The notes under the pieces were generated by a model, which was not told where the DNA came from, did not search any database, and saw only the letters and a program-made list of their open reading frames with translations. A stretch of DNA of 64,000 bases from Heliopora coerulea (lineage: Eukaryota; Cnidaria; Anthozoa; Scleralcyonacea; Helioporidae): positions 100,945-164,944 of the forward strand of contig JASJOG010000449.1 of assembly GCA_030142905.1 (NCBI GenBank). The letters are read 5' to 3'. Numbering within the stretch: the first letter of the stretch is position 1; every line of letters starts with the position of its first letter. The position numbers were made by a program, and so were the translations under genes. Positions 23,958 to 62,804 of the stretch are shown here, piece after piece.

Positions 23958-26900
23958 TCACGCTTCCACCATGACTTTCGGAATGCGACGAAAATGCACT
24001 TCAGTCGTGAAACCATTGAATAACTTCATGAAATAGACCAGAGACCCAATGTTTGTGTCTGGATAAGTGGGGATAACTCTCACGTGTTCGTTCGCTTCCT
24101 TGGGATCGACGAGTTCACCATCAACGTAAACGCGATAACTGCTGGGTTTCACCTTGTACTTTAGGAGAACCCAGACTCGCTTCTCCTGACTACGCATGTA
24201 AAAAAGTTCCTCGTCTTTCACATCTTTTGTTGTTCTCAACTTCTTTGTCGTGTTGAAATTGAGCTGAGGATAGCTTACGCCAATTACGAACCTTTGACTC
24301 TTCCCTCTGCCATCTTCCACCATTGCAACACAGGGATCGCTTACGAGAATTAACGGTCCGGGAAGTATGACGTTCTTTCTGAATATGCTGTATCCGTAGG
24401 TCGTAAGACCAATTCGCGGGGCGTTGTTGAATTTCACAACGTGCGCATGCTTATCTTGCCGCAGTACTTCATATTTTGGCAAACCACGCAGTTTTTCCTG
24501 TCGACAAGCAAAGTTGTAAAGCTTTTTGAAAGACGTGTTTATCAATATGGCGTACTCATAGGTCTTCCCTTGCGGATTCGCGCCGTGATTCAGCCACGCT
24601 GTAGCGTAGTGTCCTTCCGTTTTCGCGTTCATTAGTTTACTGCTGTACGAAGTTTGATTGCCTATTCGCACGGTCAAGTGCTGTGTCCCTGCCCTGGGGA
24701 CATAATATCCGTTGCCGTTTATGTCTATGAGAATGGCCGGAGAGCTCTTTCCCCACACAAAGCGCTTGGAGTTCTCAGTCTGTTTAACCTGAAGCTCAAA
24801 ACCATTTACGAAAATAGAATGGATTTGATCCTCGATAGTGCCTATATTCTGGAACAAAGTTGTCTCTGCCTCCACGTGACTCGGAAGTCGGGCATTTATA
24901 TCACTGCCTAAGCATACCAACAGTTCATCGTTAAAGAACACGGACTTCTTAAACCAAAATTTATTGTCTTGACTCCCCCGACCATATTGTTGCTCGTAAT
25001 TCGGCCTTTGGAAGTCCATTATGAACACTCCGTTTCTTAAACGGCTTGTACCTTGAAAACTGACTGCTCCGCAAAGGTCTTTGGGGTTGTAGAACCGTGA
25101 TACTTTGTTGATCAGCTGCTTCAAAGGCACACGCAACGTGGTGGTGCCCGGAAGTCGAGTCCAGTCCCAGCCCTGACGGATGTCGTAAGCCTTTAAGGCG
25201 TGGTCGCTATTTCCAATAATTAATTGTCCATGGCTTTGATAGCGACCGTAATGGTTCCCCCTGTAGGAAGCCTCATAACCCCAAACAAAGCTATTAAATC
25301 CTTTTACCGTCACTGCCCAATTATCCCGACGATGTATCGCGAGTGCTGCGAAGTTCTTGGCCCAGTTCCCGACAGGTGACTGCTCCGCCTCAATACCGAT
25401 GTCCTTTGCGAGGCTCTTCAGCTTGTACATGAGCGACAGCGAGCCTAAGGTAGTCATTATTGTTGCTTTGGACGGGCAGCCTACGCCATACGATAAATAT
25501 ATCCGGACATTAGCATCTGACTCATTAAACAGGCGCAGAAATGCGCGAAGGCTGGCTATCGCTTGCGAGGACATTTCGTGGAGTTTGGGCTTCCCATCGC
25601 GGGACCGGTCTTCGAATAGCGCCACGTGCGCAAATGCTGGCATCAGGCAGATTAGGTCAGGTTTCGCGTGATTAGGATCTGTATTTTGTACACTACTGGG
25701 AATAGAATACTTAACTGACACAATTCTCATCAAGTTAATGGCGTTTATTAGATTTCTCCGGCTGGCCTCGTTCACCTGAAACCTAGTCCCGCGCAGTAAG
25801 TACAACACGTGTGAGGCAGTAAGGAAAGCGGGCAAGCAATAGTCTTTGACATAAAACGACTTGTGATGATAACCGACGTAATCTGGCTTGATTACCCCTC
25901 CTAAGGCTGGGTTCACACTTAAGGCGTTCTCGTACCAGCCTCTCAACGCTTTCATATCTCGTAGTTTATCAAAAGCCTGTTGCAGCGTCGCCTCAGGCAT
26001 CACCAAAACACACATGAGCCGATAGAACAGCAGCGTTCTCATTCGATCAGCGGTTGTCCCCTTGTACTCGAACTGGCCCTGATACAGCTCTCCAAACTCG
26101 AGGTACCACTTCATGATGTGAACTAGACGGGCTAACTTCCCAGCTCGTTGGAGCGGCTTTCTTAAAAGAAACACTGACGTCACAAAGCCTTTACTGCTGC
26201 GGTTCATTTCGTGGTCAAGGGAGCCAATCGCACTTCCGACTGCCCAACCTTGATCTAAGATGTGCTCCAATAGACGAAGAAGTCGAAGGAAACGATAGTG
26301 ATTGACGTCCTTCAAGGCAAGTCGAAGCTTTCGTTTCGTTAATGGTTTAATACGGAGTTTAGACGATTCGTAAAATGCTCCCATCAGTTCTTTGTCATAA
26401 CCAAACAACCTTTGGACGGTTTTTGCTGACAATTTTGGATCATTAAGTTTGTGCAACTCTTCTTCGAGGGTTCTCTGAATTTCTTGTTTGCGAGTTAGGA
26501 AGAAATACTCTAAGGATAACGGAAACAGTATTTCGCGCATCACAAAACCGAACTTTAACTCGGGCGAGCTAATATTGAGCTGTCCATACTCTGAATTTCG
26601 CGCAAAAAGAGGCGGTCCTCGGATGAACCCTTTCGTTCTTGTAATATTTAGCGTCTTAAAGTATTGGCGAGCAAGCTTTATAGTACCCTTAATTTGAGAC
26701 CATCGGCTTCGGAAATAGCCTGTGAGGTCGTAGGTTGCTTTCCCTCCGTCGCAAAACCAGTCTCTTAGTCGTGCCCTGATCAATCTCATATCCCTTAGTT
26801 CTTCTAACTGTTCATTATTCAACTCAATTTCGTTGAATATGTCATCTTTTGGTTTCACAAGACTCCAGCGATACGTCTGCTGCCAAAAATCTTTAGGGGT

Positions 26901-27400
26901 TGACGTACGACCTCTGATTGGTGGAACGATATGATCACGTGACTGCCTTCTGATCTTCTTGCGAACTATGCGCAATAGATCGATATAGATTTCTCCATCG
27001 TGCTTACTTGGTGCTCGAAGCTCCATCCTGTAGAAAGGTGACATTGTTTGCCGGAGGCGGCACTCGCCGAATGCCACCCAAATCCCTCGCCATCCATAGA
27101 AATCCAGAGATATATCAAACTGACACTCGGGACCTTGGGTTCTCCGATAATATGCCAGAAAACTTGTGTAAAAAGACAGGGTCATTTTCCCGGGAATACT
27201 TCGAACGAGGTAGAGCCATACTTTGATGCCACCACGGCCAAGCTGTTTTTTCTTGACTGGGTCGTGATACAGATCCAAGTTCAGGGTGTCGCCTCGTTGC
27301 CAAGTCCACTTGAGTGACCTTCCACCGTGTTTGTGGACATCAGATGAAATAGTCAGATTTGAGGTCCTGGATACAGTGAAGTAGTTCATGTTGGATTCGT
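23958..27400 (-). CDS. Catalytic exon of lyase gene 1 (3.4 kb, no internal intron)
   Basis: One uninterrupted frame of 1147 codons including the stop, carrying the complete mature enzyme. The first in-frame ATG (27389) is not the likely start: three residues upstream (Glu-Ser-Asn) and a splice acceptor precede it, and the paralogue has homologous residues there. No frameshift or stop disrupts it, which argues for selection to keep the protein even though the Arg of the catalytic set is missing. Confidence 0.92.
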
Positions 27401-30400
27401 CTGTAAAATAACAAAAGGGAGACGGTGCATGTCCTGTAGTATATTATATCATACTGCACTGCGCGGCGTTGTGGTGTATTGTGCTAGACTATGGTACACT
27501 GTGCCGTCGTGTCCCCTCCTTTGCTGTACCGAATTGCGCTACCCTGAGCTACGCTCGAATGCTCTGCATTGTCCTGCAATGCACTGTACCGTTCGTCCTA
27601 TATTGCATTGTACCATGATTCGTTGTTCTGTGCTGTTTTGCACTATGCTTGCGCTACACTGTACTATACTATACTGCACTCAACTTTGTTGTACTGTACT
27701 CTACTGTACTGTACTCCACACCACACCACACCACTCCACTTCACTCCACTTCACTCCACTCCTCTCCACTCCTCTCTACTCCTCTCTACTCCTCTCTACT
27801 CCTCTCTACTCCTCTCTACTCCTCTCTACTCCTCTCTACTCCTCTCTACTCCTCTCTACACCTCTCTACACCTCTCTACACCTCTCTACACCTCTCTACA
27901 CCTCTCTACTCCTCTCTACTCCTCTCCACTTCACTCCACTCTACTTCACACCACCTCACTCCACTCCACTCCACTCCACTCCACTCCACTCCACTCCACT
28001 CTACTCCACTCTACTCTACTCTACTCCACTCCACTCTACTCCACTCCACTCCACTCCACTCTACTCCACTCCACTCTACTCTACTCCACTCTACTCTACT
28101 CCACTCCACTCTACTCCACTCCAATCTACTCCACTCCACTCCACTCCACTCCACTCCACTCCACTCCACTCCACTCTACTCCACTCTACTCCACTCTACT
28201 CTACTCTACTCTACTCCACTCCACTCCACTCCACTCCACTCCACTCCACTCCACTCCACTCCAATCGACTCCACTCCACTCCACTCCACTCCACTCTACT
28301 CTACTCTACTCTACTCTACTCTACTCTACTCTACTCTACTCTACTCTACTCTACTCTACTCTACTCCACTCCGCTCTGCTCCGCTCTGCGTTCCGTTCCG
28401 CTCCGCTCTGCTCTGCTCTGCTCTGCTCTGCTCTGCTCTACACTGCTCTGCTCTACTCTACTCTGTACTCTACTCTGTACTCTACTCTACTTTACCCTAC
28501 TCTACTCCACTATACTTTACTCTACTTTACTCCACTCTACTATACAGTACACCACTGTACTGTGTTCTATTTAGTGTTCACAATATGAGCGGCCGTTCTG
28601 TGCGGGATCTGGAGACTCGTGGCAAAGCCAAGTTTCTTTAATCACGATACAAAAGGAATACGTATTTTATAAATTTCTTCTAAAACTATTTCTAACACAC
28701 TACAAAAACAGATGGTTATCTCTGGACATTTGCCGAAAAACTATGCGTTGGGTAAGAGTTTCTTCTAATTGGTTGTTCAGAGGCGAGCAGCCATGTGTGT
28801 AAATGCGATGTAAAACTGAAGTTTGATTATTAATCAGTAGTGTCATATTTGCAAATTAAACACTAATTTCTTTTGTATTTACTCGTGAATTTTTAATGAA
28901 TACTGAAAACAAATATTACAGTGACTCACTATGTTGTACGTAATGGCTACTGAACCCGTCAGTCCTTTAACCCTTAAATTTTTTTCTTTTGTTCTTTGCT
29001 CTCTATATGTTTTTCCTTTGTTCTCTTACTGGTTCATTTGTTCTTGGGTGTCCGTTATATCGGACACTGTGATTTAAAGCCTGGTTCACACAAGCGACAT
29101 AAGCATAAGGACAAAATCAATACGAAAACCAAGCATGATATTTGCTCTGAAACTTGCGAAGACAAAAGAACAAGAATTTTTCTATGTTTCGTCCTTTGTT
29201 CGGCTGTTGGCTTATCCTTGGACTGCGATTTTATGCTTATGACGATCCTTATGTTACAGGATTGACTTCATTCCTTCGTTTTGCCTTTTGTTTTGTCCTT
29301 ATGCTTATGCTCACGTGTGAACCAGGCCCAAAGGGTTAAGTTAGTGGATCGAAGCAAGAAGCGGCTAATGGACCGAAGTCGGGTTAAATTACATTCCTAT
29401 TAGTCAAAAAGACCGTTTTCCAATGGGAATTGACAGTGACGTCAATAATTTAGATTATATAGCGAAAGTTGAAGTAATAGATACAATATGAGCGGCTGAT
29501 TTGTATGCGATTTACAAAGCGAGCGGAAGTAAATCGCATACAGATCGGACGCGAATATTGTATCTTTCTTAAAACACGAGTACATTTGAATGGCCATGCT
29601 TACCGGTTATTTTGAAGTTTCGATATATTTTAACGTAGAAAATCGAAGAGAAAAGTTCATAATTCTGATTAGTATTCTGTATGCGATTTACAGAATACTA
29701 ATCTGGGAGCCAATATCGTTGGCGTTTTCTTTATGAATTATTAATGAGTATTTTAAGGCTATATAAAGAGCAATTTTTAGCACTTTGTCCGCATTATAAT
29801 TTCCTCAAAGACGTTGTACTGAGGTTGAACAAGCGTGCTTGTGGTTCAGAGGATGTCAAACTTCTTGTTTATTCCAAATATTTCAGACTTCGGCGAAATT
29901 ACAACAACACTCGTTCGCAAGAGGACAAAATGGCAGTCTGGAAGCGAATGGAAGTAAATGAAAGCAGCGAATCCTTCAACGGAGAATTTGAAGTCGATGT
30001 ACACGAGTCAGGAGTATTCAAGATGGGGAAAAGATGGCTCTTAATTTCCAGGTTAGAATTTCAATGGTGTTTGATAGAAAACTAGGAGTTCGAATGCAGC
30101 GAGGTTTCGTGTAAAATCTCTGCCAATATTACCACTTAGTTCTTTTGGGTGCACTGTTGAGTTAATTGACGACATTTTCATTTAGTGAATGTGGAGTGCT
30201 GCTTCGGCAGTGTTGAAAAAGGCCTGTGAAAAGCGAAACAGGTCAGGGAACTGTCGAAGTGACGTTTTACTTCGACGAAGGGTCTTCGAAACTTGCGACC
30301 TGTTCAGAGTCCATGCCTAGGTACGGTGCCGAGGTACGAGCACTAACTGTAACAACGTTCAGACTGCTTCTCACCCGCTATGACGGTTTCAGGTTTGAGA

Positions 30401-30618
30401 TTGTCATCTTGCTGAAATTGTACACTCGCTTCGTGTTTTACATCCCGATAAAAAGCATATATGTATATAGCATGTAAAGCATGTATTGTATATGTATACA
30501 TGCATATGTATATATGTATATATGAACATTTCTACTGATGATGAAACTTACCATACATCGAGCCCTTTGCGAGAGATAGCAACAGAAAGAAGAAAATGGA
30601 TTCATTGCATAACGCCAT
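23958..30618 (-). CDS. Polysaccharide lyase family 8, chondroitin ABC lyase-like, gene 1 (two exons)
   Basis: Predicted secreted glycosaminoglycan lyase of 1169 residues. Family 8 enzymes cleave chondroitin, dermatan or hyaluronan chains by beta-elimination. Exon 1 (30618-30552) codes 22 residues with hydrophobic core SIFFFLLLSLAKG, a signal peptide. Its donor is GTAAGT in phase 1. Exon 2 (27400-23958) follows a TTTTACAG acceptor, so a split Asp codon joins them. Domain order by similarity to bacterial ABC lyase: N-terminal beta-sandwich (about 30-170), helical toroid (about 180-640), central and C-terminal beta-sandwiches. Signature words: SADRMRT-like TADRMRTLLFY, NWAVTVKGF, HYGRYQSHG, GWDWTRLPGTTT, ETTLFQ, NGNGYYVP. 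Residues matching catalytic His501, Tyr508 and Glu653 of the Proteus enzyme are His535, Tyr543 and Glu732. The Arg560 position is Thr596. Activity is therefore doubtful. It is a paralogue of the divergent gene at 58274-62804. Confidence 0.93.
27430..28570. repeat. Pentanucleotide array (CTCCA/CTCTA)n, over 1 kb
   Basis: Period 5 throughout. The core, about 27713-28500, is nearly pure CCACT and CTACT units with higher-order blocks; both ends decay into CTGTA, CTATA and CTCTG variants. On the coding strand of the lyase gene it reads as purine-rich GGAGT/AGTAG. The 330-380-codon Ser/Thr/Leu/Pro open frames here are repeat artefacts. Confidence 0.97.
29079..29327. mobile_element. Small non-autonomous TIR element (about 250 bp)
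   Basis: The ends GCCTGGTTCACAC and GTGTGAACCAGGC are inverted repeats, extending inward through GCGACATAAGCATAAGGACAA with few differences. There is no coding capacity. The superfamily is not clear because no convincing target-site duplication is visible. Confidence 0.75.
29470..29703. repeat. Two hairpin-forming inverted repeats
   Basis: The first pairs GATACAATAT...TGTATGCGATTTAC (29478-29512) with GTAAATCGCATACA...ATATTGTATC (29529-29565). The second, 29665-29703, pairs GATTAGTATTCTGTA with TACAGAATACTAATC. Both contain GTATGCGATTTAC, so they are probably related. Confidence 0.75.
30297..30435. repeat. Terminal fragment of a TIR element related to 46265-47118
   Basis: Shares ACCTGTTCAGA, CGGTGCC, CACGAGCAC-like and TCAGGTTTGAGAT words in the same order as the left end of the element at 46265. 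No matching right end was found nearby. Confidence 0.65.
30552..30618 (-). CDS. Signal-peptide exon of lyase gene 1
   Basis: ATG at 30618, then 22 codons: a short polar start, hydrophobic core FFFLLLSLA and a small-residue exit. It ends with one base (G) before GTAAGT. The phase matches the acceptor of the large exon. The start is the only ATG giving a signal peptide in this frame. Confidence 0.85.
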
Positions 30619-31760
30619 CGTTCTCTACAAAAAATCAAAATAACGGCTAATACGTTTGAGAAGCACAAAAAGACGTTCGAGTTTGAAGTCCGTTCAGGAA
30701 GAGATCGTGTCAATCTGATACTATTTCACCTGGGGAAGTCAAGTATAACGTACTTTGTCTCTAGTCTTCAAGGGTCTGTTACACGAAGCCCGGATGGCTT
30801 ATCTAATGTATATACTTTTATAGCCATTGGATAGGTATCGCAGAAAAAATAGTGGGTGGCTATGGCAATCAATGCTTTGAACAACATATTGACCTCATTC
30901 TTTTCTAGCCATGTAACTTTCAGCGAGTTTAATAAAAATCCACATTTCTCCGTACCATCCGCCCGTTGAACGACATTTGTCAAATCTAACGCTTATACGT
31001 GAGCAAAATTTTATTTCAGAATAGTGACATGGGAACATTCTAGTCAATTGCAGTGGGAACACAATGTTCTTACAATGCACCGAAAAGCAAATTATGCCAG
31101 TTCAAGTTTGAAAACTTTTACAGGGAGGCACACCCTGAATCCCTGCAATAGACATTTGAGTCAGCCACACTTATTGTTCGTGTCTCCATTAGGAGTCGTG
31201 TTTTCATAGCAACCAGCACTTGCGTTACTCGAACTTGGGACCTGGGTATAATGAGGGCAGAGGACGAATAATCACTTCGTTTAAAGGGTTTGGTTTGCGG
31301 AAATATTATTTCGCTGTTCTCAGACTTTCATTTCGTCAAAAATTTGAATTGAAACTTTAGATTAGAAACTGATCTAGGGTTAGGGTCAGATATGGAATTG
31401 AGGATCAAGGTTAGAGTTTGGGAACGGATTAGCGTCGGTAAAATTGTGAAGGTGTCACCTGTCATTTTGAGGCCAGCGAAATAACGTCTTCCATGGTCTT
31501 CCTACGATATGATCCCTATATCGTAATACGGTAATTGACAGTGAACTCGCACTTAGTCTCTTCTCATACGTCATCTTGACACCTGCCTTATAACATGATT
31601 GCGGAACGTGCGAACATGAGAGGCTTATTGCTCCTAAAGAAACGGTTGTGTCAAATTCTGTTGAGAATCCTGGTACCGTACTTTCATGTACGGTGCCTTA
31701 CTGTACATGAAAGTACGGCAAGCTATACCAAAACAATACTTACGATATATACTTAGATAC
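30619..31760. other. Upstream flank of lyase gene 1, no gene seen
   Basis: The promoter of lyase gene 1 should lie here, but no core element is obvious. It contains a strong hairpin (about 31676-31719) with stem CCGTACTTTCATGTAC and an 11-base loop. Open frames are short and unsupported. Confidence 0.5.
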
Positions 31761-31761
31761 A

Positions 31762-31769
31762 TACATACA

Positions 31770-31817: not shown

Positions 31818-31821
<4 letters not shown>

Positions 31822-31849: not shown

Positions 31850-34800
31850 AATCATATAATCATCATACAAACTTTATTTAAAAAAAGAAGAAACAACTAC
31901 GTTTCGGACACCGGCCCCTTCTTCAGCAGCTCACAGTTAAAGAGTAGAGTCCTTACATACCTTGTCGTTCTTCCTTAAATTTACATAAATTTCAAACCTC
32001 CATTACATTTAATCCCAGAGGAGCATAACATTTTAATTTTTCAATCCAAAAACCTTCCCTTGCTGTCGGATCCCTAACATCGGTAACATCAATTATTGTA
32101 ACAGATAAATCTTCCAGACCTATATGCTCATCTTCAAGAAAATGTGCATACAGGTGCTCCCCACAAATTCCCCTTTGTTCCCTTTCACATCGTCTCAAAG
32201 AACTCTTATGGTTATTGAACCTTAACCTGAATGGTGTTGTTGTGCTCCCACATATTGTTTACTACATCTTTTGCACGTTAAGTATACCACTCCTTGAGAG
32301 TCACAGTCAAAGGAATGATTGATATGGAAAGACCGCTTTTCTACATTACCCATAAATATCGATCCAGTTTCAACAAATTTACAAACTTTACATCTGGCCT
32401 TTCCACAGCAAAACATTCCCTTGGACCCCTCCTCCATAGGTTGTATTTTAGTCCTCACCAAAATATGCTTCAAGTTCTTCGCTCTCCTAAAGCTTAGCCT
32501 CGGAGTAACCGGCAAAAGCTTTTTAAGTACAGGCACCAATTCAACCAAAGTTTGCAATTCTCGAAGGATATTATGCACTACCTGAAGTGCAGGATGAAAG
32601 TCCAAAGTCAAAACCAACCTATCAGGCCTATCTGAATTTCTCTTTCCCGTTCCATTAAGCAAAACTTCCCGATCAAGACCGTTCACTCTGCCGATCTGCT
32701 TATCAACAAAACCCCTCTCATAACCCCTTTTCCACAAGAAACCTTTTAATTCTTTCTCCCTACTTTTGAAAACATTTTCCGAATCGCAAATTCTTTTCAA
32801 TCTCAGCGCCTGACTATATGGAATAGCTTTTTAACATGCTGAGGATGGCACGATTTAAAATTCAAGTACTGATATGTATCCATCGGTTTATAATAAACAT
32901 CAGTACTGAAAATTCCACCATTAAAACTAATCATCACATCTAGAAAAGATATTTCCCCATTACCAATCTCCCACGTAAATTTGATAGATCCATGATACGA
33001 ATTCAAGGCCAACAAAAATTCATCCAATTCCTCCCTGCCATGAAGCCATATCATAAATATATCATCCAGAAATCGCCGCCAAACCCACAGTCTATAACTA
33101 CAAGTCTCCAAGAACGAATTTTCAAAACTCTCGATGAAAATTTCGCAAAAGCCGGGGCAAACTTTGTTCCTATTGCCGTTCCCAATTTTTGCCTATAAAC
33201 TCTTTCATCAAATTCAAAATAATTGTTTTCCAAAATAACCTTTGCCAAATTGAAGAGGTGCTCCGATGGAGTCTCCACTTCACCATCATTAATTGCTTTT
33301 TTAAGTGCTTCCAAACCTTCACAATGAGGTATATGTGGGTATAATCCCACAACATCAATCGTACAAATAATAGCATTCCGAAGGGCACCACCCAACAAGA
33401 AATTTTAAAAGGAAATCATTCGTATCTTTAATTATCGAAGAAACCAAATCTACTAATGGTTGAATATAAAAATCCAAAAACTCAGAAATCCTTTCCGTTG
33501 CTGTTCCACAATTTGAAATAATTGGGCGCCCTGGTACCTTTTCCAACCTCTTATGAATTTTTGGAAGCAAATCCCAATCTTGGTCTCGGATTCAACAAAT
33601 ACTTTCTATTCTTATTAATATACCCTTCGTTCATTAATAAATCCAAACTTTCAGCAACGAGAGAGGGTACCTGATCCAAAGGATCATTTAAAATTCTTTC
33701 ATATACATCACTATCCCGAAGCTGATCAAACGCTTCTTTTCAATAATCTTCTCTCCCCCATATAACCACTGCTGAACCTTCATCCGCTTCTTTGATAACA
33801 ATATCTCGATATCGCTTTAAATTTCCCAAGGCTTCCCTCTCTGCCACTGAAATATTACTAAAATTCCTACCTCTCTCGTTGATCAAACAAACCCTTTCCT
33901 GTAATGCTGAAAGATATAAATCAATTTCTGGCTCTACTTCTTTCGGTACCCAAGCTGATTTTTCTTTAAACCTATCCAAACTCTTTTGTTCTTCATAATC
34001 TTCAACCTTATTTAAAAAATACGCCCTACATTTTAACTCGCGACCACACTCTCTAAGATCTTTTTGAATGGCATAGCAGTCTAATTCTCTAGGAGTTACA
34101 CATATTTTCAAACCCTTCGATAGCAAAGAAATTTCAGCTTCGGTCAAATTCCTATTAGATAAATTGGCAACATTATCACTTACAAACTTACTACATTCAT
34201 TCAAATTAACGATCCCTATTTCGTTTTCCATATGTTCTGCCTCTGAAACCAGAATATCAAGCATGTCTAACTTATCTTCACTCTTTTCTTTCCTCTCCAT
34301 TACTTTGCTTTCATCTGCTTCATAGCCAACTCCGTCATCACCTTTTTTCCCGGCATTTTCTCTTGTTTATTATGCGACAATGATTCCACCAAAATTCCTC
34401 TTATCCGTTCAACCGAATCCCTTGTTAAATACCGTCTTCCTCTCCGCGACTTCCACCATCCAAATTTCTTTATAATATCCTTCGAGAATTGCAAACTTTG
34501 GTTGAATTGGTGCCTGTACTTAAAAAGCTTTTGCCGGTTACTCCGAGGTTAGGCTTTAGGAGAGCGAAGAACTTGAAGCATATTTTGGTGAGGACTAAAA
34601 TACAACCTATGGAGGAGGGTCCAAGGGAATGTTTTGCTGTGGAAAGGCCAGATGTAAAGTTTGTAAATTTGTTGAAACTGGATCGATATTTATGGATGAT
34701 GTAGAAAAGCGGTCTTTCCATATCAATCATTCCTTTGACTGTGACTCTCAAGGAGTGGTATACTTAACGTGCAAAAGATGTAGTAAACAATATGTGGGAG

Positions 34801-35184
34801 CACAACAACACCATTCAGGTTAAGGTTCAATAACCATAAGAGTTCTTTGAGACGATGTGAAAGGGAACAAAGGGGAATTTGTGGGGAGCACCTGTATGCA
34901 CATTTTCTTGAAGATGAGCATATAGGTCTGGAAGATTTATCTGTTACAATAATTGATGTTACCGATGTTAGGGATCCGACAGCAAGGGAAGGTTTTTGGA
35001 TTGAAAAATTAAAATGTTATGCTCCTCTGGGATTAAATGTAATGGAGGTTTGAAATTTATGTAAATTTAAGGAAGAACGACAAGGTATGTAAGGACTCTA
35101 CTCTTTAACTGTGAGCTGCTGAAGAAGGGGCCGGTGTCCGAAACGTAGTTGTTTCTTCTTTTTTTAAATAAAGTTTGTATGATG

Positions 35185-35190
<6 letters not shown>
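31850..35190 (-). mobile_element. Penelope-like retroelement with GIY-YIG endonuclease and inverted arms
   Basis: The minus-strand coding region runs about 34494 to 31992 in several frames. The N-terminal part lies at 34494-33740 (LTEAEISLLSKGLKICVTP; KEADEGSAVVIW). Reverse transcriptase lies at 33570-32803 (PKIHKRLEKVPGRPIIS; CTIDVVGLYPHIPH; GTAIGTKFAPAFA; RRFLDDIFMIW). The C-terminal linker and GIY-YIG nuclease lie at 32800-31992 (CKVCKFVETG; GVVYLTCKRCSKQYVG; AREGFWIEKLKCYAP). At least three frame breaks make this copy defective. The 3' portion (31850-32573) is repeated in inverted orientation at 34468-35190, starting exactly where the N-terminal frame begins. Such inverted terminal copies are typical of this retroelement class. 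Confidence 0.9.
34468..35190 (+). repeat. Inverted arm of the Penelope-like element
   Basis: It repeats the linker and GIY-YIG region and the 3' untranslated part of the element, near-identical to the left arm but with a frame break near 34620 and another at the same spot as in the left arm (after QQHHSG). It ends in AATAAAGTTTGTATGATG and a (TA)n tract. Confidence 0.88.
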
Positions 35191-35218
<28 letters not shown>

Positions 35219-41624: not shown

Positions 41625-41955
41625 TATATATACGAAAACTCTGACTGCCCCAGCCGGGAATCGAACCCAAGGTCTCCGAATCTACGTATCGGTGCTCTGA
41701 CCACTGAGCTACTGAGACACAGCTGGGACAGTCAAAAATTTTCATATATACTGAATTGGCCACGATTTTCAATTCTCTAACCGGAAGACATCTCATCTTC
41801 ACAACGTAGAATGGTGGCCAATTCAGTATATATGAAAATTTCTGACTGTCCTAGCCGTGTCTCAGTAGCTCAGAGGTCAGAGCACCGATACGTAGATTCG
41901 GAGACCTTGGGTTCGATTCCCGGCTGGGGCAGTCAGAGTTTTCGTATGTACAATT
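41625..41955. repeat. Fold-back element with a tRNA-Tyr-like unit in each arm
   Basis: Arms of about 135 bases are inverted around a 70-base centre. The plus-strand unit at about 41863-41933 folds as a good cloverleaf: acceptor GTCTCAG with CTGGGGC (wobble pairs), D-arm GCTC/GAGC, anticodon loop ACGTAGA (anticodon GTA if position 33 is C) and T-arm TTGGGTTCGATTCCCGG. Position 33 should be U, and the unit lies inside a palindrome, so I treat it as tRNA-derived repeat. The left arm (about 41648-41718, minus) is nearly identical. Confidence 0.85.
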
Positions 41956-51760: not shown

Positions 51761-52769
51761 GCAAGAATCTACCATGGAACAACTTAATGAGAACGACCAT
51801 CGTTTCGTTTTTGGGGACGGTTGGAAGAAAGATTCAGCCCGAGTCAATATGAAGCATTAAAGCCTCATAAGAAATTAAAAGTTTACTGGAGAGGTGAGAG
51901 GTTGGAGACCACCTCTGAGGTTAATTTGGTTATACCCTACAGCAGTGTTTTTTTCCTGACTTTTATTTTCGTCGCAATTGAAAAATCTCATCTTGGGGAG
52001 AGCTCACTGCTGTGCGACGTGATCCTCTTAAGGTCCATGTCCTATGTGACATATTTTGCTATTGGGAAAGAGCTTTCTGTACGTAAGGCCTTTCCTTTTT
52101 CTAGAAGTACGGGCAGAATTTTTATCCGATTATCCGATTCATTTGGACCTCAAGGAGCTGAAGAGCCTTTGACTGAATCGTAGTTATCATAAGACGAAAG
52201 AATATACGCCGAACATGTGAAATACTTTAATAATAAATGTTTTTGAGCACAATCTGATGCTTTTAAACTGCTTTTCGATCGTATCCTAGGAGTAATGAAA
52301 TTAAAACATGGCCAAATACTACCCTGGTTCCCAGATCCTAGGACGGGTGCTGGTGGCACAGTGGTGTAGTGAATTGCATGCTTGCGTTAAAGCAAACAAT
52401 GCTTTCTTGTCTAAGCATGGACTGACATAAATCGTCACAAATTTTATTGAAAGTAACGCCGGACAACTGAAAAAATTTCTTTCCGTTCTTTATTACACCC
52501 CCTGCTAAAAAATGTCCCACCATTGGCTACTTCGGCTGTTATACACAAAAACGAGAAAGATTTCTCCGGAGTCTTAGCTGCCCGGATTCAAAGTATCTGG
52601 ATTCTTTTCCGGATTGGCATTATTCGTATTTGTCCAGATTCGTGAGTAAATCCGAAGACTTTCTGTACCGGATTCGTTATTTCAGTGTAAACGGCTATTT
52701 TGAATTCGAATAAAGTCTCCGGATTACCCACCGCTCGAGTAGCGATTTGAGCACTCTGGTCCCTTATCA

Positions 52770-52835
52770 ATCCAAGTTCGTTCCGAGCTACCCTGATGAG
52801 CTGTAATACAGCGAAACGTACGTCTGCAGATTGAA
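52770..52835 (+). ncRNA. Candidate hammerhead ribozyme (type I-like core)
   Basis: CTGATGA (52793-52799) is followed by a perfect 5-bp stem II with a 3-base loop (GCTGT-AAT-ACAGC, 52800-52812) and then GAAA (52813-52816). A minimal stem III, ACG with CGT around a TA loop, leads into GTC at 52822-52824, the expected cleavage triplet. Stem I pairs only partly (upstream CTACC against TGCAG after the triplet). Hammerheads with very short stem III are known from Penelope-like elements and retrozymes. Cleavage is not demonstrated. Confidence 0.5.
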
Positions 52836-52837
52836 CA

Positions 52838-52880
52838 TATATGTATGTATGTATGTATGTATGTATATATATATATATCT
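52838..52880. repeat. (TGTA)n/(TA)n microsatellite
   Basis: TATG/TGTA units grade into TA units immediately after the hammerhead-like motif. Confidence 0.9.
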
Positions 52881-53035
52881 ATCACATTGCAGGTTTTGTT
52901 CTGGTAGCCCGGTTTCCTCCTGTCGTAACACTGGACCCATGAGATGTTGCACTTAATGGACCCCAAGGATGAACAGCTTAGCTAGTTGGTAGGGTTATCC
53001 ACCATAAATAAAGACACTTAACTTCCCTTACTTAT

Positions 53036-56000
53036 CCCTGAAAACTGTCCAGTGTTGTGAAAAACATTTTTTCTTACGTTCTCCGAAGCAAGTTACCTGA
53101 ACTCCTGTGGGGAGGAGATGCTACTGGGAGATCGATCATTTCGAGTGAAGTAGATCTACGTGGCTTTGGGAAATGAGGGCAAAAAGCTGTCATTAAAAGA
53201 CCACATGTACAATTTCGCACGAAAAGGGCAGGGGTCGCACCCCCCGCATCCCCCTCTAGTTGGGGTCTGGAAGTCAGTTAACGTGTACGTAACCTATTAT
53301 CATTGGGGGAGTATAGCAAGGAGTTTTTAAATTGCTCGACAAACATATAGAAATGACGAAATTTTGTTAAAAAGTACATGAATACCTTAGTGCGGTTAAA
53401 AAATAAGTTTATCAACTCCCAGAGAGCAAAATAAATTGAACCAAAGATGATATAATTTATACCACATTCTACATAATTAGATGAATTTCATCTGCCATTA
53501 ACTACATGAAACCAGAGATTAGGACAGTGAATGACGTGAAGTCTGTTTGATGGATTGCCTCTGTCCAACTTGTAAACAAGTTGTATCGATCCTGACTCAG
53601 GATTCCTGAGTCTATTTTTCGCTCTGCTGAAACTGAGTCTGTTATAATTTGCTCCCTGAAGAAAAACAAAAATACGTCGCTTGTCCTGAAGTATCTAGTA
53701 AGTACTGCTTTGGCTCTTCCTCTGCATGAATTCCGCTTTGAGACACGTTCCATCTCTCTAAAATTTACTTGCTAATAGCTATTTAAGTGCCGTCTTACAT
53801 GAGTATGAAACATAGAGTCGGTCTTGTTTCATGGCATGTTTAATTTTCAGTTCTACTGTACGTTTGAATATGTGTATCATCCATGTCTTCTGTGGTTGAG
53901 CTCATGAAAGAAAATGATCGGACAATTAGTGAAGACGAGCTTCGACAAATGTATGTTTGCGCCTCAACTCGTACGGTCGAAGCGCGGAGAATGCTAAGGT
54001 CAGAAGCTCATAGCAGAAGAAAACCATGCCAACTTGGACAATTTCGGTTTATTTAGCAAAATTCTTTGTAGATTGCTAGCGAAACTGGATTCGTTGACCG
54101 ATCAAAACTTATTTGATAGATCACAAACTCGATCCAAGGGATCGGGTGTAATTTTTTGCTGTTGATATTCGTTATGACGCATAACACGCGCAGCACTGAG
54201 CACACAAGCCAGAAATTGGGGAACGCTAATTTCAAGTTAAATCCGAGGAAATTCATTCGAGTACCTTACTGATCTTAAAGCTTTCTTTGTACTGTAAACA
54301 CACTAGTTTTGCTCACAAAATGTCTGTATTGGGGACATGCATTGGATGTCGATATCAATTACATGGAACCATCATGTTTAATTGTTTTGTCTGGCCCGCG
54401 ATAACTGGTGGCCTTCCAAGTCTGCTAAATTCAACAGTCCGAAGTCTTTCCTTCATGCTGTTTGTAGCACAAAATTTACACCCCTCCGTAGACGACAGGA
54501 CAATTAATAGATTAAGTTGACAAATTCTGCATCGAACAGAACCCTAGTACTTTTATTCACTGAGCGGTGCACCTCAAACAGGTTGTTGTCATAAGTATTA
54601 TTGCGCAAAGCAACGATGCTCATTAATGTCAGAGACTAAGACCCTCAGCGAACACAACGCGAAATTCATCAGTGGCGTGTGCTACCCAAGACTTTTTCAT
54701 CCAAGGCAAAGAGTACGCACTTCTCGATGTTTGGATATCCGGTCAGGCATTTCTTCTGGTGCAAGATATACTACCCTAAGGCATTTTGACTTTGGGAGAA
54801 ACGAGAGCTGCTACGTCGTGTTTGATGTCAACCTAATCGACAAAATTCTTCGAAAATTTTCACTTTTTGGATGTCGAAAGGACATGCAGCAAATATCCAA
54901 TGCAATGTCAATGATTCGTGATATCTTTTAACTTTTCCGTATTCCACTTTTTAATTTTACTGTGGCAAACGTCAGACGAGTTTACGATGGCTTGTACCAG
55001 CCGAGTTAAATTATGGACAACGCCGAGTGGTTTTTACCCAGACCAACAACGGACGATTTTACTCCAAGCAGCCCAGGGCAGATTTACTCGGGCCAGCGTC
55101 AAATGATTTTACTCTTCATGGGGAATCGTCCCAGACCGGGAAGGGTAAAGGCGACTCCCAATTTACCAGAGGTTTCTACATGTTTGCACTCGTCAGTTGG
55201 GGCAAGTTATATGATTTGAAACAGTTGTTTGATTAATAATATACAAGAAAAAAATTTTTCGATTCTGATTGGCTAAGAGCAGTGCAACTTCAAGGTAACA
55301 CAGTACCGAAAAAAGATATTACAGTAATTTGCACTGAATTACCTTGTTTTGGCACTGCAATAATTTTTCCATGCATATTAATTGTTAATAGCATGATTTC
55401 TCGTGCAATTTGGAAAAACACTTGCGAATTTTTCAAAGACCTCAAGTAGCACTGGTCCTTCTTACTCGTGCTCTTTTGATAGTTTTTGAAAAACTCACTC
55501 GTGCGTGTTTTTTCCAAGTTGCATTCGAAACCGTGCTTTTTCCTGTACTAATAGTGAGCATATATTTCATATGAAGGACAGCATGACGGCCAAGTTGGTA
55601 TACTAAAGAAAACCTAATTCAAATCTGTTGATAGCTCACCAAAGTCTAAATTTTTACAGATTTCTACCACAGAAAGCTCCATAACAAGGCTGACTTTTTA
55701 TTGTTGAAAATATCTGTAATCGTGTGAACAAATTTTGCTAACATCACCCCATACAACTGTATCTCTTCAGTTGCATGTTAGCAGATATTTTAGGAAAGCA
55801 AAAATAGTCTCTAAATTGCTGCGAATTGCTACCCAAAGCGTTTATACATTGGAACAGATTCGACAAAAGGCTGTTCCGTTCGTTGTTCAATCGCATTCCA
55901 AGAGTGGATATCCGAAGGATTGAATTACCAGCCGCACCCAGAGTTCGTAACGTCCCAAGGTTTATTATGGCTGATGTAGTGTGTATCGAAACCACCTATG

Positions 56001-58070
56001 CATAAAATTATTCTGCACTTGTTCAATTTACATAATGCTTTTTCAGCCTTTCTGCTCGACACAAGGCATGTTTAATGGATGACAAAAGGAAGTCTCGAAG
56101 GACGGTAACATCAACATTTTATCCAGAGGTGAGTTACTTGAGGGCTGAAAATCGTTGGTTTACTGTCAAGGGTCCGGTGTTACGCCTCTTCAGCTTAAGA
56201 CTTTCTTGTCTTTTCGATGACCTTCGTCGATTTGAACGGATAGCTTTGTTGAACCGACGAGAGTGAATGCAATATCGATTCCGTTTTGTAGTTTATTTTC
56301 GTTTACAAAGCAGTGGCGGTTCGCTACTTTTTTCATATGTGTCTAATGACGGGATGAATAGTCAATCATCGTCTACAGAAATCAGGGAAGCGCGTATGGT
56401 TTTCGCTTCTTCGAAACCCGTTCATGCGTTCATAATGTTGTATTCCTTCACGAAAACTTTCCTTCAGTAATTTTACCTAATATCATCACAAGAACTGACG
56501 AAAATCAGTTACAATGCTGGTTTTTTACCTTCTGTTTCGCTTTTGCGATCAAGATACGGAGTGACAGTAATTCAACTACTCGACTACACGATTACTAGTG
56601 AAGCATACATCTACACGTCTTACACAGCATGATGGTTGCTTAAGGTTGTATATATTTCTAATGTATGTGATTCAGTGGTAAGAGTCTTCAGGATGTGTTG
56701 CAACATTCACAAACTAATCATGAGTAGAAATTGTGTTCCTGAGAGATAATCATATACTCCAGGGCGAGAAATCGTATGCGACAATAGTTATCGTGTGGAT
56801 GGAGCTTTAGACTGCTTCAGCTGGAAGCGTTTTAAATGCTATGCCAATCCATATTTTGTAAACTCTTGTTGCATGATATTGCTCTGGTGTGACTCTGGTG
56901 AGAATTGGTTTGGGCTTCAGAATGATATTCTTGATACAATGAAACTACGACTTCATTTCGCTTTCATAATGTACCATCTATCTACATCGAATGCACGTGA
57001 ATGATTAAAGATGTATGTCGGAAGTAAATGCCACTTGAGACATTGAGAACAAACAATTCTACGCAGTTTGACTAAAGACGTCTTAATTTAACGGTAAACC
57101 AATTGATGGAATCTAGCGAATCATGATATTTTGTTCATCAGTTCAACTCTTACATTTTTATTCCAATTCGGGAAGAGAAAATGCGGTTGCAATGCTCTTT
57201 GAATACTGTTGATCTGTAATTGTACTAGATGCGGAGATTCAATATGGACCTTGTGATATTCTTCTATACACAGCTGCATTCACGTGCTAAACTGAGGGTA
57301 TTATCATTTATAATCGTAATATAACGAACATCCTTAAAACGAACCGGCGGGAAACTTATTGGATGACAACATTTCCCATTTTTTCCCCAACATTCACCAG
57401 TCGAAGGCTGTTCAGGTAGTCGAAAGCTCGTCAATAAAAATCTCAGGTCAGAGAACGCCTTGTATTCAATTATTTCCCATTTTGTTGGGGGACTGAGTTC
57501 GATTTTAAGGGGATATCCCAACGTCTGAATTTAATGTACGAAATTCCCAACATCCATCAACAGCCCACCCGAACCATTGGTCTTTGTTAGTGCTGGGCCA
57601 TGCACTTAAACGTCGCCGCAGCGATAGTATCTGGAGGACAATAAAAGGAGTTTGTCTTTGAAATACAGGAATGTCTCCAATTTCTATCAACCAGAGCTAT
57701 ATAGTGTGCACGAAACTATAACAGAGCAATTCAGAATACTAATTACTTTAAGCAGTTCTGTGTTTTCCATATCTATCGTCGATGTATTCTGTATGGCTCT
57801 GGAGTTACATCAATTTATTCTCAGTACAAAGGTATCTGTGAAAACCCTTTGAAACGGAAGAAAAGAGTAAAATTAGACCGTAAAATTAGGACAACTCGAT
57901 CTTTCAACGTTCACCATTAACCAAAGAATAAGTGACATGATTTCTATTTTCCAACAGTCACCAAGTCCATTGTGCAGGTAGGGATACCCAGGGATCAGAG
58001 TGAAGCGGGAAGAACTGTGGTTCTGTCGCCAGTAGGTGTGAACAAATCAGATATGCATTAAGAACGAAAT
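53036..58070. other. Five-kb interval without a supportable gene
   Basis: Only short open frames (up to about 101 codons at 54626-54931). The scrap at 55517-55290 (minus) codes SEFFKNYQKSTSKKDQCYLRSL-like text also seen at 20271-20498, so it is a dispersed repeat. 55050-55170 has repeated GATTTTACTC words. An 85-codon frame at 57521-57264 (minus) has no recognised domain. Unseen small exons cannot be excluded. Confidence 0.45.
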
Positions 58071-58145
58071 GTAGCTACCCAGCCGTGTAAAATGTTGAAC
58101 CCGCGACCCTGCGAATCTAAAGCAGTGCTTTGCGAGCTGAGCTGC
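58071..58145 (-). repeat. Degenerate tRNA-like sequence
   Basis: The minus strand carries a D-arm-like GCAGCTCAGCTCGCAAAGCA and a T-arm-like TCGCGGGTTCAACATTT. The acceptor stem does not pair well. It lies about 130 bases upstream of lyase gene 2. Confidence 0.45.
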
Positions 58146-58273
58146 AAAGACAGTTGTCGAGAACATGGTCAACAGTTCTGTGTTTATAGAGATGGTAATG
58201 CCGGTATTAGTGAGGGGTATATACAAGGAGTATAAGTCATTTACCTTTGATCTAATAAATGGAGTAAACAGGA

Positions 58274-58382
58274 ATGCTTTTAATTTTTTTTTCGCAGCCA
58301 TTTAGACTTCCACATCTTGTACTTTTGTGTGCGTTGATAGTGATCTGGTTGCGGATGTGGAACTATTTACATTTGGAAACTA
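58274..58382 (+). CDS. Signal/anchor exon of lyase gene 2
   Basis: An in-frame stop lies 9 bases before the ATG. The ATG is followed by 36 codons and one extra base before GTAAGTATT. A T-rich tract ending CGCAG (58284-58297) inside the exon looks like a splice acceptor in the same frame. A more distant 5' exon joining at 58298 is thus an alternative, and then the first eight residues would differ; the hydrophobic segment stays in either case. Confidence 0.75.
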
Positions 58383-61300
58383 GTAAGTATTACGACTGTT
58401 AGAAATTACGTTTTTTGTGGAAAATATACTCCAAGGATGAGCTAAAACTCAACGTCGTGCCCAGGGCCTTTCAAGAGCCAAGCAAACATTACGGAAAATT
58501 CTGAACAGCGGGAGCAAATGCCTCCGGCACAGGCTGTGGTCTTTAGTTGTAACTGGAATTTTCCTTGCTTGAACAAGATTCTTTTACCGCGCGTTTTGAG
58601 CGCATAGAAAGGACGAATTTAACACGAGCAATATTTTGGGTGTTTTTTTAAATTTTTGTTCAAGGACGTGCGTCCAAGTTTACAAAGTGAGCAAAATGCT
58701 GCTTGTTTTTGTCAGCATTTTTCGGAGCTTTTATCTCACGGTAGATGGCCAGTTATGGAGCATCTCAGGACCTGTGTTTTAACGTCGTCGGAAGAGACAT
58801 GAAAGTCTAACCATTTACTTATGTTGACGTAATAAACACCTCGATTATTCTGGGGCGTTGAAAAGTCGTCTGACCGAGCGCCAAGCGTGGATGTTGCAAC
58901 AGGACGATACTTGTGATGACCTCTATACTTCAAAAGATTATTTCAACTCTGCACGTGATTTGTCTGATGCAGTGTCAATTATTCATCCAATTTTGAGGGC
59001 CACGAGTTTAATTGTTACCTTCTTCAAACAAAGTCTGTTATTCGGCTCAATGCCAGCAAACCGAAGACATGGCCAATATGAAGTGGAATCCGTCACTGTA
59101 TTTGTGAAAATGAAAATTTGCTAGCAACACGTGTCCAGATTAGTTCCTTTCTTCACGATCTTTTTCAGTTTTGAAAGATTGCGAACGTGTCGGATAGTAA
59201 TATATGTACATTACAAAATCAATAAATTCAATATATTTATTGATTAATATTAAATATTAAAATTGATTAATAAGTCAAGTATTATTGTTTGAAAGAAATA
59301 AGGCAGATTTTGCTCAAATCTAATTCATATCTAAAGGGTTAAATTAACTTTCTCACAGGTCCCTCACTTCATGCTGTTCCACCAGTATTATCATTCGAAG
59401 ACCCAGCGGAACTCGCTTATTTTGAGGTCTCTGCGACCTCCGACTTAACGACGTCTGTGAAACACTATAAAGATGGATTCCATTCACTTCTCTGGCAGTG
59501 GCAGCCTGGGGACAGATTAACCTTACGGTTAGGAAGACGTGTTTCAGGCAAAATGAGCGGAATCAAGATTTGGATATACCGCAACCAGTCTTCAATTTCT
59601 AACCTCACCATCTCCCTTATTGACTCAACGGCATTCTCCAATCAGGCGATGATCATCAGTTTAAATTTTTCTCTGAATTTCAAAGGATGGCGCGCGGCAT
59701 GGGTTGGACTTCGAGAAGCCGAATCGCTTCCAAAAAATCCGGGATACGATCAAGTTGTTATAGACTCTCCTTCAGAAAATGTAACTTCCAAAGTAATTTT
59801 TGTAGACTTGCTGTGTCTGGCCACAAATGTACATAGGCAGTCACGTGACGAAATCGTTCCACCTATCGGCAAAAGCATTTACACAATAACAAGTCTTTGG
59901 CAGCAGGTTTACAAATGGAGTCGGGTTATCCCACCGCCTGTGGACGGGACAACGCCACTAAACCAAAGTGAAAAAGAGCACTTGGGGAACTTGACCCTAA
60001 TTGAAAAACGCCTCATGAATTGGTTTGCAAACGAAAGCCTGGGACCTAGCCATTACACTGGCAATTTAAAGAAGCGATGGGAATCGTTGGTTGTTCTTGG
60101 ATTTCACCAAGCAAGGAGGCTAATAAAAGAACTGAACATAACAATTACTGATGGTATTCTTACTGGGTCTCCTCTTTTTACGAAATATTCGGCATTTGGA
60201 AGTTCCCAAAAAATTGGAAGAAATAAAAAACTCGGATTGGTTACTAACGAGGTTCTTTTCCCCTTAACTTTGGAATACTACTTTTCAACGAAACCACAAC
60301 ACCTAAGGGATCAAGTTACCAGAGAGTTAGCGAACGTAAACAGACCTGTCCAACGAAGAGCTGCCGTAATGAGGATTACTAAAGGAGATGAAATACTTTG
60401 TGAATTTATGTTGGCAGAACTGGAGGCTTATAATACGCCGATTTCTCCCCGTGTTCTCCGAAACGTCCTTGATAGGCTAAATGAGAAAAAACTTGAAACT
60501 ATATTGCAGTTACTTGAGTATATTTCTGACCAAGGCTGGAGTGAAGGAAGCGGTTTTGGTTCGTTGGATCATGAGATGAACAAAGCTGGTTCTGGTTTCA
60601 TGCATTCGTTATATCTTCTCAAACCGGTGCTCGCACGGAAAGGCAAACTCGAGTCTGTGATAAAGACTATGAAATGGTACAACGAGTTTGGTGAGGTTTA
60701 CCAAACTAACTTCGAATTCAACGGTACCAGCGCCGATAGGATGCGCACCATCATACTCTATCGATTGGAAACAGTCCTCATGAACCCTGCGCGAACGATT
60801 AAAGAGCAGAGAGAGAAACTTAGAGACATGGCAGCGTACAGCCGATGGTGCAACAACGCTTTGCTTGTTAACACAGCGTTTGAAGGCGTTTTTAAGCCTG
60901 ATCTTTCGTGCTTTCACCATCTAGCAGTCTACGGTCCGGCCTATTCGCCGGAGGCTTTAACTGTAGCAGCGCTGGTATATTATTTGCTGGATGGCACGTC
61001 GTTTTCACTCAACCCAGATTCGAGGAAGAACATACGAGACAGACTCGATTCCTATCAGGAAATGGCTTTGCTGTATTCTATACCAAACTCGATCGCAGGT
61101 CGTTTTCCAGGTTATTCAAGCTCAACTTTAATTAAAATGCTACCTGCTTTTTCACATCTGTCGGCCGGTTCACAAAATCTTCAAGCTAATGGTGAACTTG
61201 AGCCTTTTTCACTAGGCCCGGATATTGGCATGGTGGAAACATTTCGAAGGTTATATCGCCCACACTACCCGAACGTAGTGGAATATTTGAGAAACGGCAC

Positions 61301-62804
61301 TCCGGGTCCAACGAATGAGTACTTGTTCTCGTTAGGCGCGTTGGAAACTATGGAAGCCATTTATAGCAAAGCTAAGCAAGCTAACATCACGGCGAGAAAG
61401 TCCCCAACGGGACACTGGGTACGAAATTACGCCGCATTGTCCATTCACCGTCGGGAAAACTGGGCGGTTAGCGTAAAGGGATTCAACCGATTCATTTGGG
61501 ATTACGAAAGTTCAAATGATGAGAACGTCTATGGCCTTTATGCATCACATGGGGCGCTCCAAATTTCCAACAGCGAGGAAAGCTTGAAGGCGTATGACGT
61601 AGAAAATGGTTGGGACTGGACACGAATTCCCGGAACCACAACTGTGAAAATGAATCTCGACCAGATGGTCAGCCGACCGTCAGCAAGATATTACCAGCAA
61701 TCGAAGTTGGTTGGGGGAGTTACTCTCGTGAGCAAAGACGCTAAGTTGGCCAATGGAGTATTCGCCATGCGGTTTCAACAACCACGTTACGATTTTCCGG
61801 CCCAGACTTTCAAGAGTAAAATTGAATTTTATTTCAAGAAGTCCGTTTTCTTCTACAACGACTTGATAGTTTGTCTTGGAAGTGATATAAATGTGGAGAA
61901 AAGTGATCCAAATCGCACGCAGACAACTTTGTTTCAGGACAAGCTTGTTAAGCCATCGGCGACTTCGACGATGTACATCAATGGCGTCACGAAGTGGCTT
62001 CGTCACGACCTACGCCTGCGCACTGATATTTCCGCCGCCATGTTGGATACAAACGGAAACGGTTACTACGTTCCAAAGGATTCTCCTTTAAACATTCAAA
62101 TCAGTCGACGACTATCACGAAAAAGTAGTGGAGAAGAAGTGAGTAGTGCTCGGTATGCCACCGCTTGGTTGGATCACGGAGTTAATCCTTTAAGCGCGCA
62201 TTATGAATACGCAATTCTTGTGGCCACAAATGCTGCGGACATTGAAGCCTTGAAGGCCGCTCAAAATTCCTCCTCTCCTCGATACGTAGTTCTGCAGAAG
62301 AACTCCGAAGCACACGTGGTCATGTTTACCAATTCGGTTAGCGCTTCCAGACTGTATGGCTACGCTTTCTACGACCGCAAGGCACTTACTAACGGTCCAG
62401 TTCGCCACGTTAGCGCCGAGTGTATCGTAATGGCCGAAGTCGATGGTCCAAATTTTTCCGATATTAACATTAGTATCAACTCGCCTGATCTTAACTTCAA
62501 CACCTCCAAGATACTTAATACTAGCGAGGACAATGGTGTGAACGAGTATTTTTACATGAGAAGTCAGCCGGTAGAAATAACAGTGGAGTTAAAGAATCCT
62601 GTTTCCTTGAACGTCCAGAGGGTTCTAGTCGATGGGAAAACAATCAGTAAGTCAGAATTGGGCGGCTACGTTGAAGTAGAACCAGATGACCCACTTCATC
62701 GAAGTCTAGGAGGGAGACGCGTCATTTTCAAGAGGCTTGTAAACGGTGAAAGTGTGGAAGCCCATCTTGTTGGGCGAGGAGACTTGGAAGCCGAGCTAAT
62801 ATAG
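58274..62804 (+). CDS. Polysaccharide lyase family 8, chondroitin ABC lyase-like, gene 2 (two exons)
   Basis: Predicted glycosaminoglycan lyase of 1184 residues, secreted or anchored at the cell surface. Exon 1 is 58274-58382 and exon 2 is 59359-62804. Donor GTAAGT and acceptor CTCACAG are both phase 1 and create a Ser codon. Exon 1 codes 36 residues with hydrophobic stretch HLVLLCALIVIWL followed by RMW, which looks like a signal anchor or an inefficiently cleaved signal. The large exon covers the N-terminal beta-sandwich, helical toroid and beta-sandwich domains. Signature words: SADRMRTIILY, NWAVSVKGF, NVYGLYASHG, GWDWTRIPGTTT, QTTLFQ, NGNGYYVP. All four residues matching the Proteus chondroitinase ABC catalytic set are present: His557 (His501), Tyr565 (Tyr508), Arg618 (Arg560), Glu753 (Glu653). 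It is therefore probably active. It is divergent from its paralogue at 23958-30618. Confidence 0.93.
58383..59358 (+). other. Single intron of lyase gene 2
   Basis: 976 bases, GT-AG, phase 1. The open frame inside it (58858-59124) has no recognised domain, and the AT-rich stretch 59195-59290 repeats TTAAATATTAAAATTGATTAAT-like words. Unlike the intron of gene 1, it holds no satellite. Confidence 0.75.
59359..62804 (+). CDS. Catalytic exon of lyase gene 2 (3.4 kb, no internal intron)
   Basis: Begins after the CTCACAG acceptor with GT completing a Ser codon, then PSLHAVPPVLSFEDPAELAY. The frame is open to TAG at 62804. The stretch from GTG at 59457 gives the longest computed open frame, but that GTG is an internal Val: 33 codons upstream are homologous to the start of the paralogue (AYFEVSATSDLTTS against NYFTVSRTSNLTIS). 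Confidence 0.92.

Follow-up and report, generated by a model that had tools for sequence, protein, structure and literature searches.

Does the octocoral Heliopora coerulea carry chondroitin lyases of bacterial type, and could both copies found in one stretch of its genome still cut chondroitin? The stretch analysed here (the window: 64,000 nucleotides, bases 100945-164944 of contig C389, which stops at window base 64000) contains two genes of polysaccharide lyase family 8 (PL8), gene A (30618..23958, minus strand) and gene B (58355..62804, plus strand). The genes are divergent, with 5' ends 27.7 kb apart, and their long open frames span 23958-27443 (minus strand, 1161 amino acids from stop to stop) and 59343-62804 (plus strand, 1153 amino acids). 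An original prediction, made from the sequence alone, had described two full-length, head-to-head family-8 lyases at this distance, and the frames, Pfam matches, and PDB matches all agree with it. Chondroitin breakdown in animals is generally attributed for the most part to hydrolases, hyaluronidases among them; a lyase route in corals and anemones, if true, would mean a different chemistry for animal matrix turnover. The new point emerging from our alignments is that the catalytic arginine has been lost across the A-type sequences found, whereas gene B retains the full catalytic set. We assign a probability of roughly 60% to the explanation as a whole, namely that a bacterial lyase was acquired, that B is active, and that A is an impaired chondroitin binder.

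We assessed family membership by domain, sequence, and structure comparison. Both products exceeded the curated Pfam cut-offs for Lyase_N, Lyase_catalyt, and Lyase_8 (E 1e-23 to 1.5e-45), and both matched the solved chondroitinase ABC structures 2q1f, 1hn0, and 7eip in a sequence search (E 5e-49 to 1e-67). Together with the Foldseek matches, these results place A and B in PL8, and the combination of Lyase_N, Lyase_catalyt, and Lyase_8 is the architecture of the chondroitinase-ABC type, the type that had been predicted. Scores against the NCBIfam equivalogs for chondroitinase AC and HylB remained far below threshold (46.4 and 60.6 bits against 1000, and 36.4 and 36.1 against 1350, respectively). 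The AlphaFold model of B had a mean predicted local distance difference test (pLDDT) score of 90.8 and matched 2q1f in Foldseek at 7.1e-56, and the structural alignment of A started at model residue 1. On these models, both proteins have a predicted chondroitinase-ABC fold. The N termini of both were hydrophobic by a simple hydropathy score, and A is predicted to be secreted.

Among characterized enzymes, BactnABC of Bacteroides thetaiotaomicron (2q1f) was the best sequence match for B, the joint-best for A, and the top Foldseek match, with 22% identity in the Foldseek alignments. The N-terminal exon of the coral genes is an addition relative to this enzyme. Its catalytic His-His, Tyr, and Glu are present in both A and B, whereas its Arg is present in B but not in A, and its other His-His pair is replaced by Asp-His in the coral genes. 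Proteus vulgaris chondroitinase ABC I (cABC-I; PL8; 1hn0 and 7eip) was 26 and 25% identical to A in the structural alignments. Relative to cABC-I, the His-His pair (388/389, hand-counted on the alignment) is Asp-His in both coral proteins, Arg500 is replaced by His in both, and Arg560 is lost in A. We take this pair to belong to a second active site, in which case the change to Asp-His presumably makes dermatan activity of A and B doubtful.

The catalytic residues separated the two genes. In cABC-I, His501 abstracts the C5 proton, Tyr508 and Arg560 are the proposed proton donors to the glycosidic oxygen, and mutants of any of these three residues show significantly reduced or abolished activity (PMC8684500). 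The set of His, Tyr, Arg, and Glu is complete in B (H529/H530, Y538, R591, E726); in A, the arginine is replaced by Thr596 and the rest is present. We therefore regard gene A as a homologue by descent and do not call it a chondroitinase. The predicted duplicated glycosaminoglycan-degrading system thus stands in so far as there are two paralogues and B fits such a role, but not for A, which is without the catalytic arginine.

To place this substitution in context, we counted residues in an alignment of 186 sequences comprising 13 A-type rows, 94 other proteins, and 79 bacterial loci, the last being the best kept of at least 379 relatives. Unnamed proteins were labelled animal or bacterial from tree position and similarity. 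At the Arg560 position, none of the 13 A-type rows carried arginine (Ala in eight, Thr in two, Ser in two, and a gap in one), whereas it was found in 172 of the 173 other sequences (94/94 non-A proteins and 78/79 bacterial loci, with one Lys). The His-His pair, Tyr, and Glu were intact in 13/13 A-type rows; elsewhere, the second His was changed in one bacterial locus and the Tyr in one, and one other protein had Asp in place of Glu. Among columns conserved at ≥95% in the 173 others, A-type sequences had lost one of 55, the Arg560 position, and B-type sequences none of 53. At 90%, the losses were 2/81 for A-type (the Arg560 position and a Leu-to-Ile change) and 0/74 for B-type. In a control with 19 clades of 5-16 rows, which overlap and are not independent, column loss occurred only in the A clade and two clades nested in it, again at the Arg560 position. 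The segment aligned plainly in nearly all rows, reading N[TAS]xP in A-type sequences and GRxP elsewhere; P0067 was one residue shorter there. End branches inside the A clade were about as short as those in B, giving no sign of decay; after an early change, A thus seems to have been kept.

These patterns lead us to predict that A is a catalytically impaired or re-purposed chondroitin-binding paralogue. We predict that B is a lyase that cleaves chondroitin-type glycosaminoglycans by beta-elimination, either extracellularly or within the secretory route, with His530 abstracting the proton at C5 of the uronic acid and with Tyr538 and Arg591 protonating the leaving oxygen. A has the same predicted fold, with His535, Tyr543, and Glu732 in place and Thr596 at the arginine position (its relatives have Ala, Ser, or Thr). 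Because this arginine is replaced, A should still bind chondroitin while showing little or no cleavage. It might act as a chondroitin-binding pseudo-lyase or have altered chemistry, perhaps opposing or regulating B, or serving as a matrix protein.

Several observations weigh against this interpretation. A lysine lies six residues downstream of the lost arginine in nine of the 12 A-type rows that are not gapped at that position (Glu in one, Gln in two) and might partly compensate for it. The stem branch of A was longer than that of B (0.83 vs 0.55). P0018 represents the same gene as A, reducing the A-type relatives to 11, and only two A-type rows carry a species name, Paramuricea (P0068) and Dendronephthya (P0067). 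In addition, the N terminus of B could be a membrane anchor instead of a cleaved signal. The lysine bears on an unlikely alternative, in which A and B are both active chondroitin lyases of differing specificities, with A compensating through the downstream lysine, water, or another side chain and with Tyr as the sole acid. The otherwise intact active site in every A-type row, the unchanged predicted fold, and end branches as short as those of B would all be compatible with this alternative. However, the arginine is kept in practically all other sequences, distant bacteria included, mutating it in cABC-I significantly lowers or abolishes activity (PMC8684500), and the candidate lysine is itself missing from 3/12 A-type rows.

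We next considered how widely the family occurs. Protein searches returned at least 59, 53, and 61 matches, and among those listed, all animal matches with a readable name came from Anthozoa (Paramuricea, Xenia, Dendronephthya, Pocillopora, Stylophora, Montipora, Oculina, Actinostola, and Nematostella). Proteins of Paramuricea, Xenia, Stylophora, Pocillopora, Montipora, Oculina, and Nematostella were annotated as 'chondroitin sulfate ABC exolyase' or 'exolyase-like'. These belong to the same family as A and B, and the members placed in our trees fell in the same clade. The pair is thus not a Heliopora novelty, and the family is already annotated in databases for corals and anemones. The shared name hides the difference that the A-type octocoral members are without the catalytic arginine, and it may be misleading for A-type genes. 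Among the open-licence papers listed by our literature searches, none described an anthozoan chondroitin lyase family. No chondroitin lyase is named in the 41-gene Table 1 of a survey of anthozoan gene transfer, in which some entries are unnamed proteins (PMC4878875), and none was found in the passages searched of papers on the red coral skeletome and on Acropora disease. One gene model, P0012 (Actinostola sp., 2005 amino acids), contains two tandem lyase copies, which is perhaps a fusion or an annotation artefact; it was excluded from the residue counts.

The origin of the family was examined in two trees, both built without choanoflagellate lyases. The first comprised 67 rows: 31 animal (A, B, and 29 proteins), seven bacterial proteins, and 29 of the 79 bacterial loci. 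All 31 animal rows lay on one side of a single branch, with a value of 100 in the Shimodaira-Hasegawa-like approximate likelihood ratio test (SH-aLRT). The rooted tree comprised 17 animal, 27 bacterial, and 10 outgroup rows, the outgroup being 10 high-scoring Lyase_8 matches chosen among those listed and assumed to be of AC, hyaluronate, or xanthan types; two of these were truncated at the end of their locus. Here, the 17 animal rows formed a 30-row group with 13 bacterial rows (SH-aLRT 99, quick search), and 12 further bacteria and two deep ones lay outside it. The horizontal acquisition put forward in the original prediction therefore agrees with the best rooted tree, in which one animal clade is nested in bacteria, but approximately unbiased (AU) tests did not reject the alternative in which all ABC-type bacteria used form one clade apart from the animals (p 0.368, and 0.301 in a second set). 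Direction and nesting consequently rest on the best tree and on the taxonomic distribution.

A second indication came from the His388 position of cABC-I. Asp was found there in 28/31 animal rows; the other three, P0079, P0024, and P0026, which cluster with anthozoans, had Glu or Gly. Among the 79 bacterial loci, the residue was Asp in 20, His in 46, and another residue in 13. In the far bacterial group His stood in 15/16, and in the sister group Asp stood in 8/18. Counting against an Asp-His signature, the unnamed animal-like fragments P0099-P0101 had His and P0011 had Asn. By this residue, most animal enzymes resemble the Asp-His type and not the classical His-His type of Proteus and Bacteroides, so that the assignment to a Proteus-like bacterial subgroup was right as to ABC type but not as to this motif.

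Taken together, the trees and residues make a bacterial transfer before the anthozoan radiation most likely. An anthozoan ancestor would have acquired a bacterial extracellular chondroitinase-ABC-like family-8 lyase, which would then have gained an N-terminal secretion or anchor exon. A and B share the same build, with an intron after the hydrophobic N-terminal segment followed by a single exon of ~3.4 kb, as might be expected of a bacterial gene with such a gained exon. The lyase would have diversified into several paralogues, of which two old lineages persist in octocorals. We consider it improbable that the family was instead inherited from early eukaryotes and has disappeared from most lineages, with no transfer to Anthozoa. 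The AU results leave room for this scenario, and the choanoflagellate Salpingoeca rosetta, a unicellular relative of animals, has two bacterial-like chondroitin sulfate lyase genes, one unique to choanoflagellates and the other not; these have themselves been proposed as transfers (PMC7971027). The restriction of the named animal matches listed to anthozoans, the nesting of animals within bacteria in the best trees, and the Asp-His motif in common with 20/79 bacterial loci all argue for acquisition.

No single candidate for the closest bacterial donor could be retained, as the best were ~33% identical to A or B and came from several phyla. Endozoicomonas are symbionts of marine animals, and two of their loci (L028 and L034) encode ABC-type family-8 lyases; L028, the one placed in the trees, did not come out as the closest relative of the animal sequences. 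P0027, a lyase from a Planctomycetota metagenome-assembled genome, has the word LDHEM in common with the animal proteins and outscored the other named bacteria among the matches listed; it branched with a Verrucomicrobia locus. Within the animals, A and B each grouped in their own clade with other octocoral-type sequences. The two clades were placed together at 74/93 in one tree, and AU tests for A+B gave p 0.429 and 0.444; B fell with hexacoral rows in the 67-row tree (85) and A with P0079/P0024 in the rooted tree (92). An octocoral-specific duplication giving A and B is neither shown nor rejected.

With one catalytic residue lost in all A-type rows found and the remainder of the site unaltered, nature offers an experiment on how an enzyme evolves into a binder or a lyase into an epimerase. 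We see about even odds that A is a conserved octocoral pseudo-lyase or lyase-turned-epimerase, derived from a bacterial chondroitinase by loss of a single arginine, which binds or remodels chondroitin of the animal's own matrix or skeleton beside an active sister enzyme. The skeletal matrix of red coral, another octocoral, has been found to contain glycosaminoglycans (PMC7853314), so this may matter in a skeleton-building octocoral. We give only a slim chance to the specific case that A has turned to uronate C5-epimerase-like chemistry, with the proton taken and returned but no elimination following, since the leaving oxygen would be less readily protonated. Such a reaction would be suited by the base His and the Tyr that remain in A. 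Human dermatan sulfate epimerases (DS-epimerases) 1 and 2, which combine an (alpha/alpha) toroid with a beta-sandwich, resemble bacterial lyases and act on chondroitin, and the authors of the DS-epimerase 1 structure noted that minute active-site changes can make a lyase an epimerase (PMC8006597). The families and chemistry of the human enzymes differ from those of A and B, however, the argument is purely inferential, and a DS-epimerase 2 already exists in cnidarians (PMC8006597).

Contamination or misassembly can be dismissed: gene B does lie near a contig end and symbiont sequence had to be removed from the assembly (PMC10267220), but both genes are split by GT..AG introns, a DDX20-like exon lies on the same contig, a second contig matches over 11 kb that include an open gene B, the separately deposited P0001 and P0018 show 99 and 100% identity, and anthozoan relatives are many. 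The assembly searched comprised 429,824,877 bases in 769 contigs, in line with the draft published for Heliopora coerulea (429.9 Mb, 769 contigs; PMC10267220). A whole-genome search with A returned A, B, and a further copy of B, on contig C51, with no third lyase locus found. Bases 1-11006 of C51 repeat window bases 52714-63726 at 99.4% identity, which speaks against misassembly around gene B. As this is the same stretch and the genome search added no locus, we rejected the possibility that gene B represents two loci. Exon 2 of the two copies differed at six bases (one silent, five not), too few for an informative allelic comparison, and both copies were open.

The features of the two genes are collected in the table below. 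Spliceosomal introns had been predicted at 30552/27400 in A and 58382/59359 in B, and both junctions have GT..AG borders. The junction of A was read through as a single continuous frame by P0017 (MMPHYELIVYSLLISMVKGSTYDESN...) and was also spanned by the NCBI Paramuricea model P0068 (...VSVVKGDLYDE...). Near the junction of B, similarity to the frames of its relatives P0004, P0006, and P0014, taken as genomic, faded at about the same place. The product of A has 1169 amino acids, and that of B has 1157 if the Met at 58355 is the start. This start is a minimal reading, as the open frame runs upstream through PFRLPHLVLLCALIVIWLR to another Met.

Features of genes A and B in window coordinates, with the corresponding cABC-I residues where assigned
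Gene	Feature	Position	Strand	Remark
A	Exon 1	30552..30618	-	Start codon and presumed signal peptide (MALCNESIFFFLLLSLAKGSMY); similar N terminus in P0017 and P0068
A	Intron	27401..30551	-	GT..AG; TACTC pentamer satellite at 27692-28545
A	Exon 2	23958..27400	-	Lyase_N, Lyase_catalyt, Lyase_8, up to stop codon
A	His534-His535	25863..25868	-	His535 = general base His501 of cABC-I (role: PMC8684500)
A	Tyr543	25839..25841	-	= Tyr508
A	Thr596	25680..25682	-	In place of catalytic Arg560 of cABC-I
A	Glu732	25272..25274	-	= Glu653
B	First exon, minimal	58355..58382	+	MWNYLHLET plus one base
B	Intron	58383..59358	+	GT..AG
B	Exon 2	59359..62804	+	Lyase_N, Lyase_catalyt, Lyase_8, up to stop codon
B	His529-His530	60915..60920	+	
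B	Tyr538	60942..60944	+	
B	Arg591	61101..61103	+	= catalytic Arg560
B	Glu726	61506..61508	+	

The satellite in the intron of A has about 170 copies of TACTC, and three long plus-strand open frames that overlap it look like repeat artefacts. The neighbouring metazoan DDX20 gene of the original prediction was recovered as a DDX20-like exon at 15646-15972 (minus strand), with a Pfam DEAD match (E 2e-10) and DDX20 as its best PDB match (2oxc, 1e-19). The animal retroelements named there were not borne out, as no retroelement domain was detected at E <= 0.01 in the eight window frames scanned with Pfam, the DDX20 exon included. Between genes A and B lies a 721-bp inverted repeat (31854-32574 / 34472-35191) with 99.3% identical arms, perhaps a recently inserted mobile element. 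Three opposite-strand pairs of tRNA-like sequences were also observed at 17031-17439, 21945-22173, and 41646-41931 (six Rfam hits), of which ARAGORN retained four hits, namely two Thr-GGT and one pair of Tyr-GTA. The first pair sits within a stretch of 503 bp (16984-17486) that is self-inverted at 92%, which suggests that the pairs are palindromic tRNA-bearing elements.

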